A DNA stretch of 35,608 nt from Desulfuromonadaceae bacterium (lineage in GTDB: Bacteria; Desulfobacterota; Desulfuromonadia; Desulfuromonadales; JAAYDE01), in assembly GCA_012512925.1 (NCBI GenBank), contig JAAZDE010000139.1, positions 1-35,608 on the forward strand, given 5' to 3'. Below, in pieces: positions 1,591 to 25,175 of this stretch. A program made the position numbers and the translations under genes. How positions within the stretch are numbered: position 1 is the first letter of the stretch; each line of letters begins with the position of its first letter. A model generated the notes under the pieces. It had not been told where the DNA came from. It was given only the letters and a program-made list of their open reading frames with translations, and did not search any database.

Positions 1591-2331
1591 TTATTCACCC
1601 TCTCCGCCCTTCTTCTTCCCGAAAACCCGCGCCACGACAATGCCGACCTCGTAAAGAAGGATGAAGGGAAGGGCGATGGCGACCTGGGAGAAGACATCAG
1701 GGGGGGTGAGAATTGAACCGACCACAAAGGCAAGGACGATGGCGTACTTGCGTTTGGCCGCCAGCCAGCGGTGATCGACCAGCCCTGTGCGGGCCAGGAA
1801 GAAGATCACCACCGGCAGTTCGAAGACCAGCCCGAAGGAGAGCAGCAGCCGGATTGACAGGCTCAGGTAGGCCCCCATGGACAGCATGGCGCTGATCTCG
1901 CCGGTGCCGGTGCCGAAACCGACCAGGAAGGTGAAGATGACGGGAAAGATATAGGAGAAGCCGAAGTAGGCGCCGAGGCCGAAGCAGAGGCAGCCGGAAA
2001 GGACGAAGGGCACGGCCAGGCGTTTTTCCCTGGCGTAGAGGCCGGGGGCCGCGAAAAGCCAGGCCTGCCACAAAATCACCGGCAGGGCGGCCAGCAGGCC
2101 GGCAAAGACAGCGATTTTGAGATAGGTGAAAAAGGGCTCGGTGGCGCTGATGAAAACCAGCGAACTGCCCCGAGGGAGCGCAGCCCGAACCGGGGCGGCG
2201 ACGAAACGGAACAGCTCTTCCGAAAAGATGTAGCAGACCAGAAAGCCGGTCCCCCAGGCGATGGCGGCGATGATCAGCCGGCGGCGCAGCTCCTCGAGAT
2301 GGGCCATCAAAGGAAGGGGTGAATCGTTCAC
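1591..2331 (-). CDS. tatC: Sec-independent protein translocase subunit TatC
   Basis: TatC is the multispanning core of the twin-arginine translocase. It recognises RR signal peptides on folded, often cofactor-containing, exported proteins. The 246-residue product begins with [11 protein letters not shown] near residues 9-19, the diagnostic TatC cytoplasmic N-terminus whose Glu residues contact signal peptides. Hydrophobic segments fit six transmembrane helices, and the length is normal for the family. The start is GTG at 2331, overlapping the stop of the upstream tatB gene by 4 nt (GTGA), so the two are translationally coupled. An internal ATG at the MAHLEEL position is an alternative but would lose the overlap. 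The C-terminal tail is short, with Lys and Gly residues (GKKKGGEGE). Confidence 0.95.
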
Positions 2332-2657
2332 GATTTTCCCCTCTTTTCGTCCGTTTGCTCCCCATTATCCAAAGCCAGGGGCGGATGAGGCTCGTCCGCT
2401 TCACTGTCATCCCGATCGGGTTCGGTGGCGCCGATGCGGGGTTGGGAATCGGGAGACTCCGCGATTCCTTTTCCGTGACCTTCTTCCCGGTCCTGCAACT
2501 CACTGTGCATCGCGTTGCGGAACTCATCGGAAGCCCGCTTGAATTCGGCCAGCCCTTTGCCCAGAGCTTTGGCCACTTCGGGAAGCCGTTTCGGCCCGAT
2601 CACGATCAGGACCACGACGAGAATCAACAGCATTTCGGTCATTCCGATTCCGAACAT
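2328..2657 (-). CDS. tatB: TatA/TatB-family translocase subunit, TatB-like
   Basis: Single-span inner-membrane partner of TatC. The 109-residue protein begins [12 protein letters not shown], then a hydrophobic helix, a hinge with [10 protein letters not shown], an amphipathic helix, and a long hydrophilic acidic tail. Glu8 in the membrane segment and the GP-K-R-LPE hinge are TatB-like; TatA proteins usually have a polar residue other than Glu there and FG at the hinge. A longer reading frame starts 12 codons upstream, but the ATG at 2657 is preceded by GGGAG at good spacing and gives the standard family N-terminus. It overlaps tatC by 4 nt. No second TatA-type gene is adjacent, so either a tatA lies elsewhere or this protein serves both roles. 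Confidence 0.9.
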
Positions 2658-2692
2658 CTTTTTCTCCCTGAAAAACAAAACGGTTGTTTTCA

Positions 2693-2721
2693 ATTATGGC
2701 GGCAAATCCTGTTTCTGAAAA
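2693..2721 (-). promoter_or_regulatory. Candidate sigma70 promoter for tatBC
   Basis: On the minus strand TTTTCA (2716-2721) and CATAAT (2693-2698) are separated by 17 nt, 4/6 and 5/6 matches to consensus. The predicted start of transcription would be about 30 nt before the tatB ATG, leaving room for its ribosome-binding site. Confidence 0.4.
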
Positions 2722-2765
2722 CCGCTTTTTTGTTCAGGCAAAAACCCCCACCCGCCAAGAACCCT

Positions 2766-2795
2766 TTGACAGCGCTGGAAAAACTCCCCTACAAT
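2766..2795 (+). promoter_or_regulatory. Strong sigma70-type promoter of nadA
   Basis: A perfect -35 TTGACA (2766-2771), an 18-nt spacer and -10 TACAAT (2790-2795, 5/6) sit about 45 nt upstream of the nadA ATG at 2840. The implied 5' leader is short (about 38 nt), leaving little room for a riboswitch. It also supports the downstream start over the longer reading frame, which would begin upstream of the promoter. Confidence 0.75.
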
Positions 2796-2839
2796 CAACT
2801 CATTCGCCACTCGGCGGGACACCGCAACCTGGAGCAACC

Positions 2840-3760
2840 ATGAACCAACATCAACAGATCATTCAGCAAATCCGCCGTTTGGCCGATGAGCGCGACGCCG
2901 TCATCCTGGCCCACAACTATCAGCCGGACGATATCCAGGAGATCGCCGACATCACCGGCGACTCCCTCGGGCTCTCCATAGAGGCCGCCAAAACCCCCAG
3001 GAAGGTCATCGTTTTCTGCGGGGTTTACTTCATGGCGGAGAGCGCTGCAATCCTTTCCCCGGAAAAGACCGTTCTGCTGCCACGTCTCGACGCCGGCTGT
3101 CCACTGGCCGACTGCATCACCCCGGAAGGCCTGCGCCGGATGAAAGAACAGCATCCGGGCGCTCCGGTGGTCACCTATGTCAACTCCAGCGCCGCCGTCA
3201 AGGCCGAGAGCGATATCTGCTGCACCAGCGCCAACGCGGTGAGGGTGGTCGAATCCCTGGTCGAAAAGGAGGTCATCCTGGCCCCCGACCGCAACCTGGG
3301 ACGCTACATCGCCTCCCAAACCGACAAGGTCTGCCATCTCTGGGAAGGCTGCTGCCCGGTCCATGACGAATTGCCCCTCTCCAGTCTGCGCCGCGCCATC
3401 AAGGAAAATCCCGACGCCGTGGTCCTGGCTCACCCCGAGTGCCGCCCTGAGATTCTGGCCCTGGCCCACCATATTCTCTCCACCAGCGGCATGCTCGCCT
3501 ATGTCCGCAAAAGTCCCGCGAAGAAATTCATCATCGCCACCGAGAGGGGACTTCTTTACCAGCTGCGCCGCGACAATCCGGGCAAGGAGTTCATCATCCC
3601 TTCCTCGACCCTGATCTGCCGCGACATGAAACGAACCACCCTGGAGGATCTCCGCTGCAGTCTTGACACCATGTCCCCCGTCGTCACCGTTCCCGAGGAA
3701 ATACGTCTTCGGGCCCGCCGCGCCCTCGACCGGATGCTGGCGGTGCCGCGAGGGGATTGA
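2840..3760 (+). CDS. nadA: Quinolinate synthase NadA
   Basis: Condenses iminoaspartate with dihydroxyacetone phosphate to make quinolinate for de novo NAD synthesis, using an oxygen-sensitive [4Fe-4S] cluster in the cytoplasm. The 306-residue product shows the three pseudo-repeat domains. Aligned by recall with Thermotoga NadA, the cluster ligands are C87 (AGCPLAD), C172 (CCPVHD) and C260 (LICRDMK). Conserved AHNYQ (24-28), GDSL and CTSANA motifs are also present. The reading frame is open further upstream, but the ATG at 2840 is preceded by GGAG, follows the promoter at 2766-2795, and gives the usual short N-terminus. Neither nadB nor nadC is adjacent, so the pathway is not clustered here. 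Confidence 0.96.
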
Positions 3761-19540: not shown

Positions 19541-22204
19541 ATGGCAAGCAAATTCGTCTATTTCTTCGGCGAGGGCAAGGCGGACGGCAACAGCGGCATG
19601 AAGGATCTGCTCGGCGGCAAAGGGGCCAATCTGGCGGAAATGACCGCCATCGGGCTGCCCGTTCCCCCCGGCTTTACCATCACCACCGAGGTCTGCACCG
19701 AGTTTTACAAAAACAACCGCACCTATCCGGCCGGCCTGGAGAACGAGGTCAAGGAAAACCTGGCCGAGGTGGAAAAACTGATGGGCAAGGAATTCGGCAA
19801 TCCGAAAAATCCCCTGCTGGTATCGGTCCGCTCCGGCGCCCGCGCCTCGATGCCGGGGATGATGGATACGGTCCTCAATCTCGGCCTCAACGACGAAACG
19901 GTCCAGGGGCTCATCAGCCTCACCAACGACCCGCGCTTTGCCTACGATTCCTACCGCCGCTTCATTCAGATGTACGCCGATGTGGTGATGGGGATGGATC
20001 GCGACCAGTTGGAAACGATCCTTGAAGAATGCAAGGACAATAAAGGGGTCCATCTCGACACCGATCTGACCGCCGACGACCTTAAAAAGCTGGTTGAGCT
20101 TTTCAAGGCCAGGGTCAAGGAAACCCTCGGTCGCGAATTCCCCACCGATCCTTTCGAACAGCTGTGGGGAGCCGTGGGGGCAGTGTTCGGCTCGTGGATG
20201 AACCAGCGCGCCATCACCTACCGCAAACTGAACAACATCCCCGCCAACTGGGGGACCGCCGTCAACATCCAGGCCATGGTCTTCGGAAACCTGGGCGACG
20301 ACTGCGCCACCGGCGTTGCCTTCACCCGCGACCCGGCCACCGGCAAAAAATATTTCTACGGCGAATTTTTGGTCAACGCCCAGGGCGAAGACGTGGTTGC
20401 CGGCATCCGCACTCCCCAGCCGATCAACAAGGACGGCAACGAGAGCCATCTCCCCTCGCTGGAGGAGGTGATGCCGGAAAGCTACGCCCAGCTGGTGCAG
20501 ATCAAGGACCTCCTGGAGCAACATTACCGGGATATGCAGGATATCGAGTTCACCATTGAAAAGAGAAAACTCTTCATGCTGCAGACCCGCAACGGCAAAA
20601 GGACGGCCCGGGCCGCCATCAAGATCGCCGTCGACATGGTCAAAGAAGGACTGATTTCGGAGAAGGAAGCCGTATTGCGGGTTTCCCCCAACCAGCTCGA
20701 CCAGCTGCTCCATCCTTCCCTCGACCCCAAGGCCCCCAAGGATGTCATCGCCAAGGGGCTGCCGGCCTCTCCCGGAGCGGTCAGCGGCGCTATCGTCTTT
20801 TACGCCGATGAAGCCGAGGCCGAGGCGAACAAAGGGCGCAAAGTCATCCTGGTGCGCATGGAAACCAGCCCCGAGGATATCCACGGCATGCACGCCGCCC
20901 AGGGCATCCTGACCTCGCGCGGCGGCATGACCTCCCACGCCGCCGTGGTAACCCGCGGCATGGGGAAATGCTGCGTGGTCGGCTGCGGAGACATCAAGGT
21001 CGATTACCAGAACAAACAGTTCGCCAACCGCAAAGGGGATATCTTCAAGCAGGGGGATATCATCACCCTCGACGGCGCCACCGGCGAGGTGATGCGCGGC
21101 GCCGTGCCGACCGTCCAGCCCGAGGTGTCCGGCGACTTCGCCGCTCTCATGCAATGGGTGGACAAGTACAAGAAGATCGGCGTCCGGGCCAATGCGGACA
21201 CTCCCAAGGACGCCCGCGTTGCTCGCGATTTCGGCGCCGAGGGAATCGGCCTGGTGCGCACCGAACATATGTTTTTCGAGGAAGAACGCATCCGCGCCAT
21301 GCGCGAAATGATCATGGCCGACAACCTCGAAGGGCGCCAGAAGGCCCTGGCCAAGATTCTGCCCATGCAGCGCCAGGACTATTACGACATCTTCGTCGAG
21401 ATGAAGGACCTGCCGGTCATGATCCGCCTCCTTGACCCGCCCCTCAACGAGTTTCTCCCCCAAGGAGAAAAAGAGATGGAGGAACTGGCTGAAATCATGG
21501 GGATGCCGCTGCCGCGGGTCAAGGCCATCGCCGAGCATCTCCACGAAAACAACCCGATGCTCGGTCACCGCGGCTGCCGGCTCGGCATCACCTTCCCGGA
21601 GATCTACGACACACAGGTCCAGGCCATCATCGAAGCGGCCTGCGAACTGACCAAAAACAACGGCTTCACCGTGGTGCCGGAAATCATGATGCCGCTGGTG
21701 GCCACCTACAATGAGATGCACCTGCTGAAGGAAAGGGCCGACAAGGTCGCCGCCGAGGTCATTGAACGCTACGGGCTCAAGTTGACCTATTCGGTCGGTG
21801 CCTGCGTGGAACTTCCCCGCACCTGCCTCATTGCCGATCGGATCGCCGAGGACGCCGAATTTTTCTCCTTCGGCACCAACGATCTGACCCAGACCACCTT
21901 TGGCCTCTCCCGCGACGACTCCGGGGACTTCCTCCCCTTCTACGTCAATCACGAAATCTACGACCACGACCCGTTTATCAGCATCGACCAGGTCGGCGTC
22001 GGGGAAATGGTCAGAATCGGCTGCGAGAGAGCCCGCAGAACCCGCCCCGACATCAAGATCGGCGTTTGCGGGGAGCATGGCGGAGAACCGGGGAGCGTCA
22101 TCTTCTTCCACCAGATCGGTCTCAATTATGTCTCCTGTTCCCCCTTCCGGGTGCCCATCGCCCGGCTGGCGGCGGCTCATGGCGCCTTGATGGACGAAAA
22201 GTAG
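19541..22204 (+). CDS. ppdK: Pyruvate, phosphate dikinase
   Basis: Interconverts pyruvate, ATP and Pi with PEP, AMP and PPi; in anaerobes it serves gluconeogenesis or glycolysis depending on direction. The 887-residue length is standard. The N-terminal nucleotide-binding domain includes GGKGANLAEM and SVRSGARASMPGMMDTVLNLG. The swivelling phosphohistidine domain has H466 in GGMTSHAAVVTRGM. The C-terminal PEP/pyruvate TIM barrel contains LVRTEHMFF, SFGTNDLTQTTFG and C843 in GVCGEHGGEP, the conserved catalytic Cys. A strong AGGAGG lies about 8 nt before the ATG. It is bounded upstream by a palindrome and downstream by a structured region with a terminator, so it is largely a single-gene unit. 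Confidence 0.98.
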   Translation: MASKFVYFFGEGKADGNSGMKDLLGGKGANLAEMTAIGLPVPPGFTITTEVCTEFYKNNRTYPAGLENEVKENLAEVEKLMGKEFGNPKNPLLVSVRSGARASMPGMMDTVLNLGLNDETVQGLISLTNDPRFAYDSYRRFIQMYADVVMGMDRDQLETILEECKDNKGVHLDTDLTADDLKKLVELFKARVKETLGREFPTDPFEQLWGAVGAVFGSWMNQRAITYRKLNNIPANWGTAVNIQAMVFGNLGDDCATGVAFTRDPATGKKYFYGEFLVNAQGEDVVAGIRTPQPINKDGNESHLPSLEEVMPESYAQLVQIKDLLEQHYRDMQDIEFTIEKRKLFMLQTRNGKRTARAAIKIAVDMVKEGLISEKEAVLRVSPNQLDQLLHPSLDPKAPKDVIAKGLPASPGAVSGAIVFYADEAEAEANKGRKVILVRMETSPEDIHGMHAAQGILTSRGGMTSHAAVVTRGMGKCCVVGCGDIKVDYQNKQFANRKGDIFKQGDIITLDGATGEVMRGAVPTVQPEVSGDFAALMQWVDKYKKIGVRANADTPKDARVARDFGAEGIGLVRTEHMFFEEERIRAMREMIMADNLEGRQKALAKILPMQRQDYYDIFVEMKDLPVMIRLLDPPLNEFLPQGEKEMEELAEIMGMPLPRVKAIAEHLHENNPMLGHRGCRLGITFPEIYDTQVQAIIEAACELTKNNGFTVVPEIMMPLVATYNEMHLLKERADKVAAEVIERYGLKLTYSVGACVELPRTCLIADRIAEDAEFFSFGTNDLTQTTFGLSRDDSGDFLPFYVNHEIYDHDPFISIDQVGVGEMVRIGCERARRTRPDIKIGVCGEHGGEPGSVIFFHQIGLNYVSCSPFRVPIARLAAAHGALMDEK

Positions 22205-22246
22205 CATTTGACTTTGTCGATCCATTATGCTACCCACTGGGAGCAA

Positions 22247-22354
22247 ATGAAGGCGTTATTTGTCATGACCAATCAGGACAAAAACAGAACCCTGAAAGCC
22301 GCTGCGCCGGCGGCCGCCGAAGCGGCCGCTTCTCAGGCACTGTTCTGTCCTTAA
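22247..22354 (+). CDS. Candidate alanine-rich leader peptide (35 aa) of an attenuator
   Basis: A small ORF of 35 codons: ATG at 22247 with GGGAG at 22239-22243 (3-nt spacing), TAA at 22352-22354. Codons 18-28 read Ala-Ala-Ala-Pro-Ala-Ala-Ala-Glu-Ala-Ala-Ala, nine Ala codons in eleven (22298-22330), using GCC, GCT and GCG. Eleven of 35 residues are Ala. It lies 42 nt after ppdK and 123 nt before an AlaA-like aminotransferase, with a strong terminator in between, the arrangement of an attenuation leader. The caution is that the Ala run coincides with GCGGCCGC palindromes, so RNA structure alone might have shaped it. No -35/-10 pair is convincing between ppdK and this ORF, so it may be read from ppdK transcripts. 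Confidence 0.5.
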   Translation: MKALFVMTNQDKNRTLKAAAPAAAEAAASQALFCP

Positions 22355-22364
22355 GCCTTGGCAT
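22265..22364 (+). ncRNA. Long rod-like RNA hairpin overlapping the leader ORF
   Basis: Nested complementary blocks fold about 100 nt into one rod: ATG (22265-22267) with CAT (22362-22364), CCAA (22269-22272) with TTGG (22358-22361), AGGAC (22275-22279) with GTCCT (22347-22351), AGAAC (22286-22290) with GTTCT (22342-22346), CCTGA (22291-22295) with TCAGG (22333-22337), capped by GCGGCCGC-CGAA-GCGGCCGC (22310-22329). It fits the 1:2 structure of an attenuator; it could also be a small RNA or a ppdK 3'-UTR element. A resemblance to 6S RNA is limited to shape and length. Confidence 0.5.
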
Positions 22365-22392
22365 CCAGATCCGCAACAGCGGAAGAGCAGAT

Positions 22393-22429
22393 AAAGGCCA
22401 TGGACAGAAAGTCCATGGCCTTTTCTTTT
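22393..22429 (+). terminator. Intrinsic terminator before the AlaA-like aminotransferase
   Basis: AAAGGCCATGGAC (22393-22405), loop AGAAA, GTCCATGGCCTTT (22411-22423): a perfect 13-bp stem, the 3' arm running into TTTTCTTTT (22421-22429). This is the clearest terminator in the window. It can end ppdK transcription or serve as the 3:4 terminator of an attenuator. The segment GCCATGG (22397-22403) in its 5' arm can alternatively pair, with one mismatch, with CCTTGGC (22356-22362), just after the leader-ORF stop codon. Confidence 0.88.
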
Positions 22430-22477
22430 ACCCGTCACACTCATCGATCTCCATCAGCAAAGGAATGGGAAAACCGT

Positions 22478-23782
22478 ATGCGCAACAATATCGTTCACAT
22501 TGGAGCCCAGGAACTGACCTATGAAATCCGCGCCATCGTCGCCATCGCCGAAAAGCTCAACCGGCTCGGCATGAAAACCAACATGGAAAACATCGGCGAC
22601 CCGGTGGCCAAGGGAGAAAAAATCCCTCTGTGGATGAAAAAGATCGTCGCCGATCTGGCTATGAAGGACTGCTCCTACGGCTACAGCGCCACCAAAGGGG
22701 TGCTGGAAACCCGGCAGTTCCTGGCCGACATGACCAACAAGCGGGGCAAGACCCAGATCACCGCGGAGGATATCATCTTTTTCAACGGCCTCGGCGACGC
22801 CATACAGAAGGTTTACGGACTGCTTCGCCACGAGGCAAGGGTCATCGGCCCCTCCCCCACCTATTCGACGCATTCCTCGGCGGAAGGCTCCCATGCCGGC
22901 CAAAAACCGGTCTCATACCGTCTCGACCCGGACAACCAATGGTATCCCGACCTGGACGACCTCTATCTGTCGGTCAAATACAACCCGGCCATCTCCGGCA
23001 TTCTCATCATCAATCCCGACAACCCCACCGGAGCCGTCTATCCGGAGAGGATCCTGCGCGAAATCATCGACATAGCCAAGGAATTCAATCTCTTCGTCAT
23101 CGCCGACGAAATCTATCGCAACCTGGTCTATAATGGCCAGTCGACCAAGCCGATCTCCGATCTGATCGACGGCATCCCCGCCATCGCCATGCGCGGCATC
23201 AGCAAGGACTTTCCGTGGCCCGGCTCCCGCTGCGGCTGGATCGAAGTTTACAACGCCGACAGCAATCCGCTATTCAAACGCTACATCCAGAGCATAGTCG
23301 ATTCCAAGATGGTCGAGGTCTGCTCCACCACCCTGCCCCAGAAGGCGATTCCGCTGATCATGAGTCATCCCGAATACCCGGTCTATCTCAACGAGCGGCG
23401 CGCCAATTATGAAAAGGCTTCCAATCTTGCCTATGATATCCTTAAGCAGGTTCCCGGCATCAAGGTCAACCGCACCAACGGCGCCTTCTACATGAGCGTC
23501 GTCTTCGAAGCGGACAGGCTCACCCATACGCAGACCCTGCCGATCAAGAACCCTGAGGTTCGCAACCTGGTGGAGGAACTGGTGTCCCAGCGAGGAATCG
23601 CGCCCGACAAGCGTTTTGTCTACTATCTGCTGGGCTCGACGGGGATCTGCGTAGTCCCCATCTCATCCTTCTGCACCCCGGAACAGGGTTTCCGGATCAC
23701 CCTGCTGGAGAAGAACGAAAAGGAATTCACGCGGATCTTCCATACCATCGCCGAATCGATCACCGCCTATCTCAACTCGTGA
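22478..23782 (+). CDS. Class I PLP aminotransferase, AlaA-like (probable glutamate-pyruvate transaminase)
   Basis: A 434-residue fold-type I aminotransferase. NPDNPTG (179-185) is the cofactor-binding loop, ADEIY (209-213) holds the pyridine-nitrogen Asp, K243 in GISKDFPWPGSRCGW is the Schiff-base lysine, and R251 lies in the following conserved GSRCGW. The pattern WYPDLDD, GILIINPDNPTGAVY, FVIADEIYRNLVYNG resembles E. coli AlaA, which makes alanine from pyruvate and glutamate; the substrate assignment is inference. The frame is open 40 codons upstream through the terminator, but the ATG at 22478 (AAAGGA/GGGA upstream) gives a normal N-terminus and lies after the terminator. Its expression is probably gated by that terminator. 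The next gene follows after 28 nt. Confidence 0.88.
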   Translation: MRNNIVHIGAQELTYEIRAIVAIAEKLNRLGMKTNMENIGDPVAKGEKIPLWMKKIVADLAMKDCSYGYSATKGVLETRQFLADMTNKRGKTQITAEDIIFFNGLGDAIQKVYGLLRHEARVIGPSPTYSTHSSAEGSHAGQKPVSYRLDPDNQWYPDLDDLYLSVKYNPAISGILIINPDNPTGAVYPERILREIIDIAKEFNLFVIADEIYRNLVYNGQSTKPISDLIDGIPAIAMRGISKDFPWPGSRCGWIEVYNADSNPLFKRYIQSIVDSKMVEVCSTTLPQKAIPLIMSHPEYPVYLNERRANYEKASNLAYDILKQVPGIKVNRTNGAFYMSVVFEADRLTHTQTLPIKNPEVRNLVEELVSQRGIAPDKRFVYYLLGSTGICVVPISSFCTPEQGFRITLLEKNEKEFTRIFHTIAESITAYLNS

Positions 23783-23810: not shown

Positions 23811-25175
23811 ATGACGACCGACGTCGACGCCCCCCAGAATCGCCCTGTTGAATCGACAGAGGATCTGGTCGCTTATCTGCGAAAGGGAAGCAAACCACCG
23901 CAAGAGTGGAAAATCGGTGTCGAGATCGAGAAGCTGGTGGTCGACCGGAAAAGCGCCGCCGCCGCTTCCCATGAGCGCATTCAAGAGCTTCTGACACAAC
24001 TGGAAAGGACGGGACGCTGGCGAGGAATTCGGGAGGAAGGACATCTGATCGCCCTGCAAGGGATCCTCTCCTCCATCAGTCTCGAACCGGGCGGGCAGCT
24101 CGAACTCTCCGGCCAGCTCTGCCCCGATCTCCACTGCTCCTACAGCAATTTCCGCCACCATATCGAAAACATCGTCCGCGAAGCCGAGCCTCTCGGCCTG
24201 GCCTTTCTCGGCCTCGGCGCCCAGCCCTTCTCCACCCTGGAGGAGATCGCCTGGCTCCCCAAACAACGCTACCGGATCATGGCCCCCTACATGGCCAGAA
24301 CCGGCTCCATGGGGCAGCGGATGATGAAACAGACCGCCGGTGTCCAGGTCAACCTGGACTACGCCGATGAGGCCGACTGTCTCGACAAAATCCGCCTCTG
24401 TCTGGCGTTGGCCCCCCTTTTCTACGCCTGGTCGGCCAACTCACCGCTGCTGGAGGGGCGCCCCTCCGGTTTTCTGACCATCCGGGGGGAGATCTGGGCC
24501 AACACCGACCCCCAGCGGAGTGGCCTGATCCATACTCTTTTCGAGGAGGGGGCCGGGTTCGCAACCTATATGGAATACGCTCTTGACATCCCCATGTATT
24601 TCATCCTCCGCGACAGCCGCTATGTCGACATGACCAGAGAGCCTTTCACCTTCCGCCGCTTCATGGCGGAAGGATTCGCCGAACACCGCGCCACCCTTCA
24701 CGACTGGGCGCTGCATCTTTCTACCCTTTTCCCCGAAAGCCGCCTCCGCCCGCAACTTGAAATCCGCTCCTTCGACAGCCTTCCTCCTTTTCTCAGCCTC
24801 GGCTTCGCCGCCCTCTGCAAGGGGCTGCTCTATGACCAGGAGGCAACAGCCGGCGCCTGGTCTTTGTTCAAGCACCTGGATCGCCAGGGAAGAGAGAAAC
24901 TGCTGCAGGACTCCTGGCGGCAGGGGCTGAAAACCCCCTTCCGGAAGGGAACATTGCGGGATGCCGCCGGGGAGATTCTGGAATTGGCTCGGAGCGGATT
25001 GAAACGGCAAGGAAAATTAAATATAGAAGATAGAGATGAGACGATATTTCTCGACAGCATCGCCGAAATCGCCGACAGCGGCGTCACCCTTGCCGAGAGG
25101 CTGCTGGCCGAATGGCGCGGCAGCCGGGAGGATAAAGCCGCCCTGTTGCTGCGCCACTGCGGATACAACCATTAA
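23811..25175 (+). CDS. Glutamate-cysteine ligase, plant/alphaproteobacterial type (GCS2)
   Basis: ATP-dependent formation of gamma-glutamylcysteine, the first step of glutathione-type thiol synthesis, in the cytosol. The 454-residue product fits the GCS2 family: EWKIGVEIEKLVVD near 32-45, LEPGGQLELSG near 96-106 (substrate loop), MMKQTAGVQVNLDYAD near 172-187, and LEIRSFDSLPPF in the C-terminal half. It is distinct from the E. coli GshA type. AAAGGA lies about 9 nt before the ATG, 28 nt after the aminotransferase, so the two are co-transcribed. No glutathione synthetase gene is adjacent. A 40-nt AT-rich patch near 25012-25055 (residues about 402-415) contrasts with the GC-rich gene but keeps the frame. 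Confidence 0.88.
   Translation: MTTDVDAPQNRPVESTEDLVAYLRKGSKPPQEWKIGVEIEKLVVDRKSAAAASHERIQELLTQLERTGRWRGIREEGHLIALQGILSSISLEPGGQLELSGQLCPDLHCSYSNFRHHIENIVREAEPLGLAFLGLGAQPFSTLEEIAWLPKQRYRIMAPYMARTGSMGQRMMKQTAGVQVNLDYADEADCLDKIRLCLALAPLFYAWSANSPLLEGRPSGFLTIRGEIWANTDPQRSGLIHTLFEEGAGFATYMEYALDIPMYFILRDSRYVDMTREPFTFRRFMAEGFAEHRATLHDWALHLSTLFPESRLRPQLEIRSFDSLPPFLSLGFAALCKGLLYDQEATAGAWSLFKHLDRQGREKLLQDSWRQGLKTPFRKGTLRDAAGEILELARSGLKRQGKLNIEDRDETIFLDSIAEIADSGVTLAERLLAEWRGSREDKAALLLRHCGYNH

Follow-up and report, generated by a model that had tools for sequence, protein, structure and literature searches.

Does the short open reading frame (ORF) in front of an aminotransferase gene of a Desulfuromonadaceae bacterium sense alanine? 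An earlier note on this DNA (the window, a contig stretch of 35,608 nucleotides) had proposed that it does, as a ribosome-mediated attenuator. Using the window and orthologous loci of related genomes, we consider it very probable that a ribosome-mediated transcription attenuator reads the alanyl-tRNA supply and controls the AlaA-like aminotransferase; alanine codons, a promoter-like site, a terminator, an alternative pairing and the geometry of the leader support this reading. All window features described below are on the forward strand.

The locus and its relatives

The leader ORF (22247-22354, MKALFVMTNQDKNRTLKAAAPAAAEAAASQALFCP) consists of 35 codons followed by TAA at 22352-22354, and nine of the eleven codons at 22298-22330, the putative sensor codons, encode alanine; the features described in the earlier note thus match base for base. 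The intrinsic terminator at 22393-22429 is likewise present where it had been placed, with a perfect 13-bp stem (-22.5 kcal/mol), a 5-nt loop and a U tail. The aminotransferase gene (22478-23782, ATG at 22478) encodes a PLP-dependent enzyme that matches NCBIfam model PRK06855 with a score of 739.7 bits (curated cut-off 443), while the score of the next best model, PRK08363 (alanine aminotransferase), is under its cut-off. The nearest solved structure is that of E. coli AlaA (4cvq), in agreement with the AlaA-like assignment made before. We infer from these matches that alanine is the likely product of the PRK06855 enzyme. A PRK06855 match above the cut-off was found in all 58 genomes of the class sampled, the listed places being one per genome. 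The window genome contains four other aminotransferase-like genes, one above the PRK06836 cut-off and three below every cut-off. It also encodes an alanine dehydrogenase, and the aminotransferase therefore need not be the sole route to alanine. A gene of the glutamate-cysteine ligase family (23811-25175) begins 28 nt past the aminotransferase; it may be cotranscribed with it and hence be under the same attenuator.

The upstream DNA was compared for 96 distinct orthologous loci. In 74 of these, a short ORF is followed by a terminator with a CCATGG-like core, one of them (L085) having no Ala run; after identical peptides were merged, there were 71 distinct Ala-rich leaders. The order of promoter, short Ala-rich ORF, terminator and gene is common to Desulfuromonadales and Geobacterales-type orders, so that the alignment of orthologous upstream regions suggested by the earlier note recovers the Ala-rich ORF and the terminator in most of the class. 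The element was found, for example, in Pelovirga terrestris, Desulfuromusa kysingii, Geothermobacter hydrogeniphilus and Malonomonas rubra, and all ten loci in one set of the Geobacterales-type (assigned by position) carry this layout. Additional loci were picked either by the enzyme alone or by an RNA model that excluded most of the Ala run. The leader is present at 9 of the 13 enzyme-picked loci, and precedes the aminotransferase at 18 of the 20 model-picked loci; at a nineteenth (L161), it precedes a two-gene operon. A Deferrisomatales record (L092) likewise carries an Ala-rich leader, and the leader of L213, an orthologue from outside the class, contains a run of six Ala codons. No Ala leader was found in the orthologous upstream DNA of Desulfobulbales-type loci (L101-L111) and some others. 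Within the class, orthologues L028/L194, L190, L197 and L199 have no visible Ala leader; these are possibly secondary losses. In another arrangement (L206, G136:C101:41800-45100), the Ala leader stands before a 319-codon gene (2036-2995, minus strand) that has no NCBIfam match, and the aminotransferase comes second.

The gene for PPDK lies upstream of the leader in the window, in the same direction (19541-22204), and the hairpin might be only the terminator of this gene, the aminotransferase having its own promoter. The relatives argue against this. PPDK is the upstream gene in the window and two relatives, whereas others have ParB, a membrane transporter or a divergent penicillin-binding protein, and in locus L004, a separate hairpin and T run immediately follow PPDK. 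The orientation of upstream genes was judged by Pfam; the longest ORF alone was unreliable for this purpose in GC-rich DNA. Because of these differing upstream genes and the separate hairpin of L004, the element appears to belong to, and travel with, the aminotransferase and not the upstream gene. Moreover, a predicted promoter is conserved before the leader, whereas consensus matching found no promoter-like site between the terminator and the gene in the window, including the DNA after 22429, where an independent promoter would have to lie. We consider it extremely unlikely that the hairpin serves PPDK alone.

The site in front of the leader is an extended -10 promoter-like sequence (22208-22236) composed of TTGACT (22208-22213), a 17-nt spacer ending in TGC, and TACCCA (22231-22236). 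The consensus pattern TTG[AC][CA]-TGN-TA is found 5' of 64 of the 71 leaders, compared to 0.7 expected from shuffles. The predicted transcript start, at about 22243, falls within the GGGAG that had been read as a ribosome-binding site; the sequence is present, but its overlap with the predicted start of a conserved promoter means that this assignment needs correction. Either the transcript would begin almost at the ATG of the ORF, or the in-frame ATG at 22265 would be the real start. We favour the ATG at 22265 as the probable start, since the promoter spacing is then typical of the relatives' leaders. In Geobacterales-type leaders (L147-L151, L163, L170 and others), the ATG is located only a few bases past the predicted -10 box, and because of this proximity the leader peptides may be translated from leaderless transcripts.

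Retention of alanine codons

The alanine codons of the window form most of a GC-rich leader rod (segment 1:2, 22284-22348) in the minimum-energy fold, and the strand from 22205 to 22440 folds 7 s.d. below dinucleotide shuffles. The Ala run could thus have arisen incidentally from a GC-rich RNA hairpin, with the structure conserved and the ORF accidental, a source that the earlier note had also considered; hairpins of the GCGGC..GCCGC type recur in Geobacterales leaders. The codon composition points the other way. GCN makes up 30.4% of codons in the leader frame versus 7.6% and 4.0% in the other two frames, and all four Ala codons are used. It should be noted that the selection of leaders by Ala content biases these percentages; therefore, the identical best-ORF search was applied to shuffled sequences. 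The richest 12-residue stretch contained on average 7.6 Ala in the 71 leaders, compared to 1.5 in dinucleotide shuffles and 1.8 on the reverse strand. A stretch of this length with at least seven Ala was found at 59 of the 71 loci, versus 0.05 expected from shuffles, and the reverse strand gave 7 of 71.

The pattern of substitutions is also at variance with a fixed palindrome. Among related leaders, codon differences involving Ala include 255 synonymous and 272 non-synonymous changes, versus 284 and 1158 for the other codon differences in the same leaders, and the alignment shows that the leader peptide drifts outside the alanines. The excess of synonymous change at Ala codons indicates that alanine is retained rather than a palindrome, and thus the Ala run is kept while other residues drift, as would be expected under the original proposal. 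In addition, the run is kept in leaders with very different base sequences and rods, and the element, modelled without most of the run, bears Leu or Phe/Tyr runs before genes of other pathways (see below). Given the in-frame GCN excess and the synonymous drift, a GC-rich palindrome is a very unlikely source of the Ala run.

In most relatives (for example, L148, L150, L029 and L088), the Ala run contains an Arg codon, which is CGA in 58 of the 59 A-R-A motifs. The surrounding GC[AG]CGAGC(TA) is near invariant over two orders, and Arg codons elsewhere in the leaders are mixed. The CGAGC motif has no pairing partner seen in the computed folds. The window is without the CGA codon, having GCC GAA GCG near 22319-22324.

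Such a near-invariant CGA motif within the run would fit a leader whose signal is arginine, peptide-specific stalling or general translation stress instead of the alanine supply. We regard such a leader as very unlikely, given that the codon is missing from the window, that Ala is by far the commonest leader residue (30%, with Arg next at 8.5%), and that the sensor codons of the sister elements fit the product of the pathway. Sensing of the alanine supply is the reading that we retain.

Alternative pairing and the position of the ribosome

Attenuation by a ribosome requires two pairings that exclude each other, and the earlier note had proposed CCTTGGC (22356-22362) with GCCATGG (22397-22403) as the antiterminator. 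The principle of an antiterminator that excludes the terminator is supported, but this register is different from, and weaker than, the one that relatives conserve and covary. In that register, the antiterminator 5' strand (segment 2, 22344-22359), which spans the leader stop codon, contributes TCTGTCC (22344-22350) and GCCTT (22355-22359), which pair with GGACAGA (22402-22408) and AAGGC (22394-22398) in the terminator 5' arm (segment 3, 22394-22408). The alternative partner of segment 3 is the terminator 3' arm (segment 4, 22411-22423). None of 100 shuffles gave a duplex as stable as that of segments 2 and 3 of the window.

Pairing of a segment 2 with its own terminator arm is favoured over pairing with the arms of other species by 2.0 kcal/mol (0 of 10,000 permutations). 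This cognate preference was unchanged on thinning to one locus per arm, and 0 of 10,000 permutations reached it when permutation was carried out within order groups only. In the alignment, which was not fitted to the structure, 84% of cells are paired for segments 2:3 and 97.5% for segments 3:4, compared to 31-45% and 19-54% for the respective slid versions. The gain for 2:3 is modest by the shuffle control, with 10 of 500 shuffles as high; therefore, we place the weight on the cognate test and on triple columns in which segments 2, 3 and 4 change together. At one such triple, 55 Desulfuromonadales-type leaders have U-A-U where 22 Geobacterales-type leaders have C-G-C; another, four bases on, shows U-A-U (21) versus C-G-C (13), exchanging within Desulfuromonadales. 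It should be noted that these covariation tests control shared ancestry only in part, and that the duplex program picks the best pairing for each sequence. The terminator is conserved with compensatory changes, and the comparison of sequences supports two mutually exclusive partners for segment 3, namely segment 2 and the terminator 3' arm.

In the minimum-energy fold of the window, the 5' half of segment 2 is held within the outer 7 bp of the rod (22284-22290 paired to 22342-22348); a comparison of the folds of related leaders did not show conservation of this rod detail across species. The distance from the last Ala codon to the stop has a median of 33 nt, and that from the stop to the terminator is 26 nt. 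In a footprint test, the ribosome footprint was masked and the RNA was folded as it would be prior to synthesis of the terminator 3' arm. The terminator 5' arm was mostly paired upstream in all 71 leaders when the footprint lay over the Ala codons, and in 9 of 71 when it lay at the stop. The contrast is modest for the window itself (0.73 on the Ala codons versus 0.52 at the stop). Without a ribosome, the mean was 0.64, which suggests that untranslated leaders may read through in this model. The equilibrium fold of the full leader favoured the terminator in every state and is uninformative as a test of a kinetic switch; the choice must therefore occur during transcription, as in known attenuators.

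The proposed attenuator would operate as follows. RNA polymerase would start at the 22208-22236 promoter, and a ribosome would translate the leader. With ample charged tRNA-Ala, this ribosome would reach the stop at 22352 and cover segment 2, such that the hairpin 22393-22423 could form and transcription would end. If charged tRNA-Ala ran short, the ribosome would instead wait in the Ala run, opening the rod and freeing segment 2, which would pair with segment 3 ahead of the terminator 3' arm; the aminotransferase would then be transcribed. Translation of the leader, stalling and control of readthrough are inferred here from sequence comparison.

Sister elements and known attenuators

A covariance model (R1) was built from the part after the Ala run, with most of the run excluded. 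R1 was rejected as a detector specific for Ala leaders: at E<=1e-4, it also matches attenuators for Leu and Phe/Tyr, as well as other terminators, elsewhere in the phylum, and its genome counts were not taken as counts of Ala leaders. Seven second, weak R1 matches within the order were examined and contained no Ala leader. Some of the matches resemble plain terminators (for example, L216, L217 and L219). In other classes of the phylum, R1 matches include Leu-rich leaders (L207, L208 and L210), of which that of L210 precedes the 2-isopropylmalate synthase gene (leuA), as does the less clearly Leu-rich leader of L214. Phe/Tyr-rich leaders (L209, L211, L212 and L220) precede genes for 3-deoxy-7-phosphoheptulonate (DAHP) synthase or ADH synthase, and weaker leaders (L215 and L218) also stand before DAHP or ADH synthase. 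The sensor codons of these sister elements fit the product of the pathway, which supports the reading of the Ala leader. The sister elements have no Rfam match.

A broader interpretation, which we hold tentatively and rate a little short of probable, is that a single modular chassis in Desulfobacterota, with segment 2 near TGCCCATTGCCTT and a terminator AAGGCCATGGGC.., has had its sensor codons exchanged between Ala, Leu and Phe/Tyr, that the Ala form is the first ribosome-mediated attenuator for alanine, and that the fixed CGA-GC adds a further signal in most species.

The amino acids for which ribosome-mediated attenuators have been described are Trp, His, Leu, Thr, Ile/Val, Phe and a few others, and alanine sensing is known from T-boxes. 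Neither the window nor 12 related loci reached the gathering score of any Rfam model, including those of the T-box and other riboswitches, and a relaxed threshold yielded only chance-level matches. No alanine attenuator was found in the open-access full-text literature on attenuators and on metal-reducing delta-proteobacteria. The view of the earlier note that none is known thus holds for Rfam and open-access papers, provisionally, as subscription papers were outside this scope. If the proposed reading is correct, alanine joins the few amino acids to which ribosome-mediated attenuation responds, in a metal- and sulfur-reducing class (Desulfuromonadales, Geobacterales) for which little has been learned about how amino-acid synthesis is controlled. 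The PRK06855 family gains a likely physiological role in alanine synthesis, and the sister elements suggest that the RNA layout is reusable, with exchanges mainly confined to the sensor codons.

Overall, the sequence comparisons lend good support to the interpretation of the element as a conserved form of the classical attenuator that is specific for alanine. With the trp, his, leu, thr and phe/ilv leaders of Proteobacteria, the element shares a leader ORF rich in codons for the (here probable) product, the mutual exclusion of antiterminator and terminator, and a downstream gene that is probably biosynthetic. It differs in that the amino acid apparently sensed is alanine, in a sequence unrelated to any Rfam leader model, and in having been seen so far only in Desulfuromonadia and a few relatives. 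The Leu-rich leaders of leuA and the Phe/Tyr-rich leaders of DAHP/ADH synthase genes in other Desulfobacterota have the same layout of segment 2 and terminator and are captured by the same covariance model, whereas their sensor codons and target genes are different. Alanine T-box riboswitches, found at alaS in Firmicutes, read charged versus uncharged tRNA-Ala and control a terminator. The Ala element is proposed to couple tRNA-Ala charging to terminator control as well; however, the T-box binds the tRNA directly, whereas the Ala element would do so through a translated leader.
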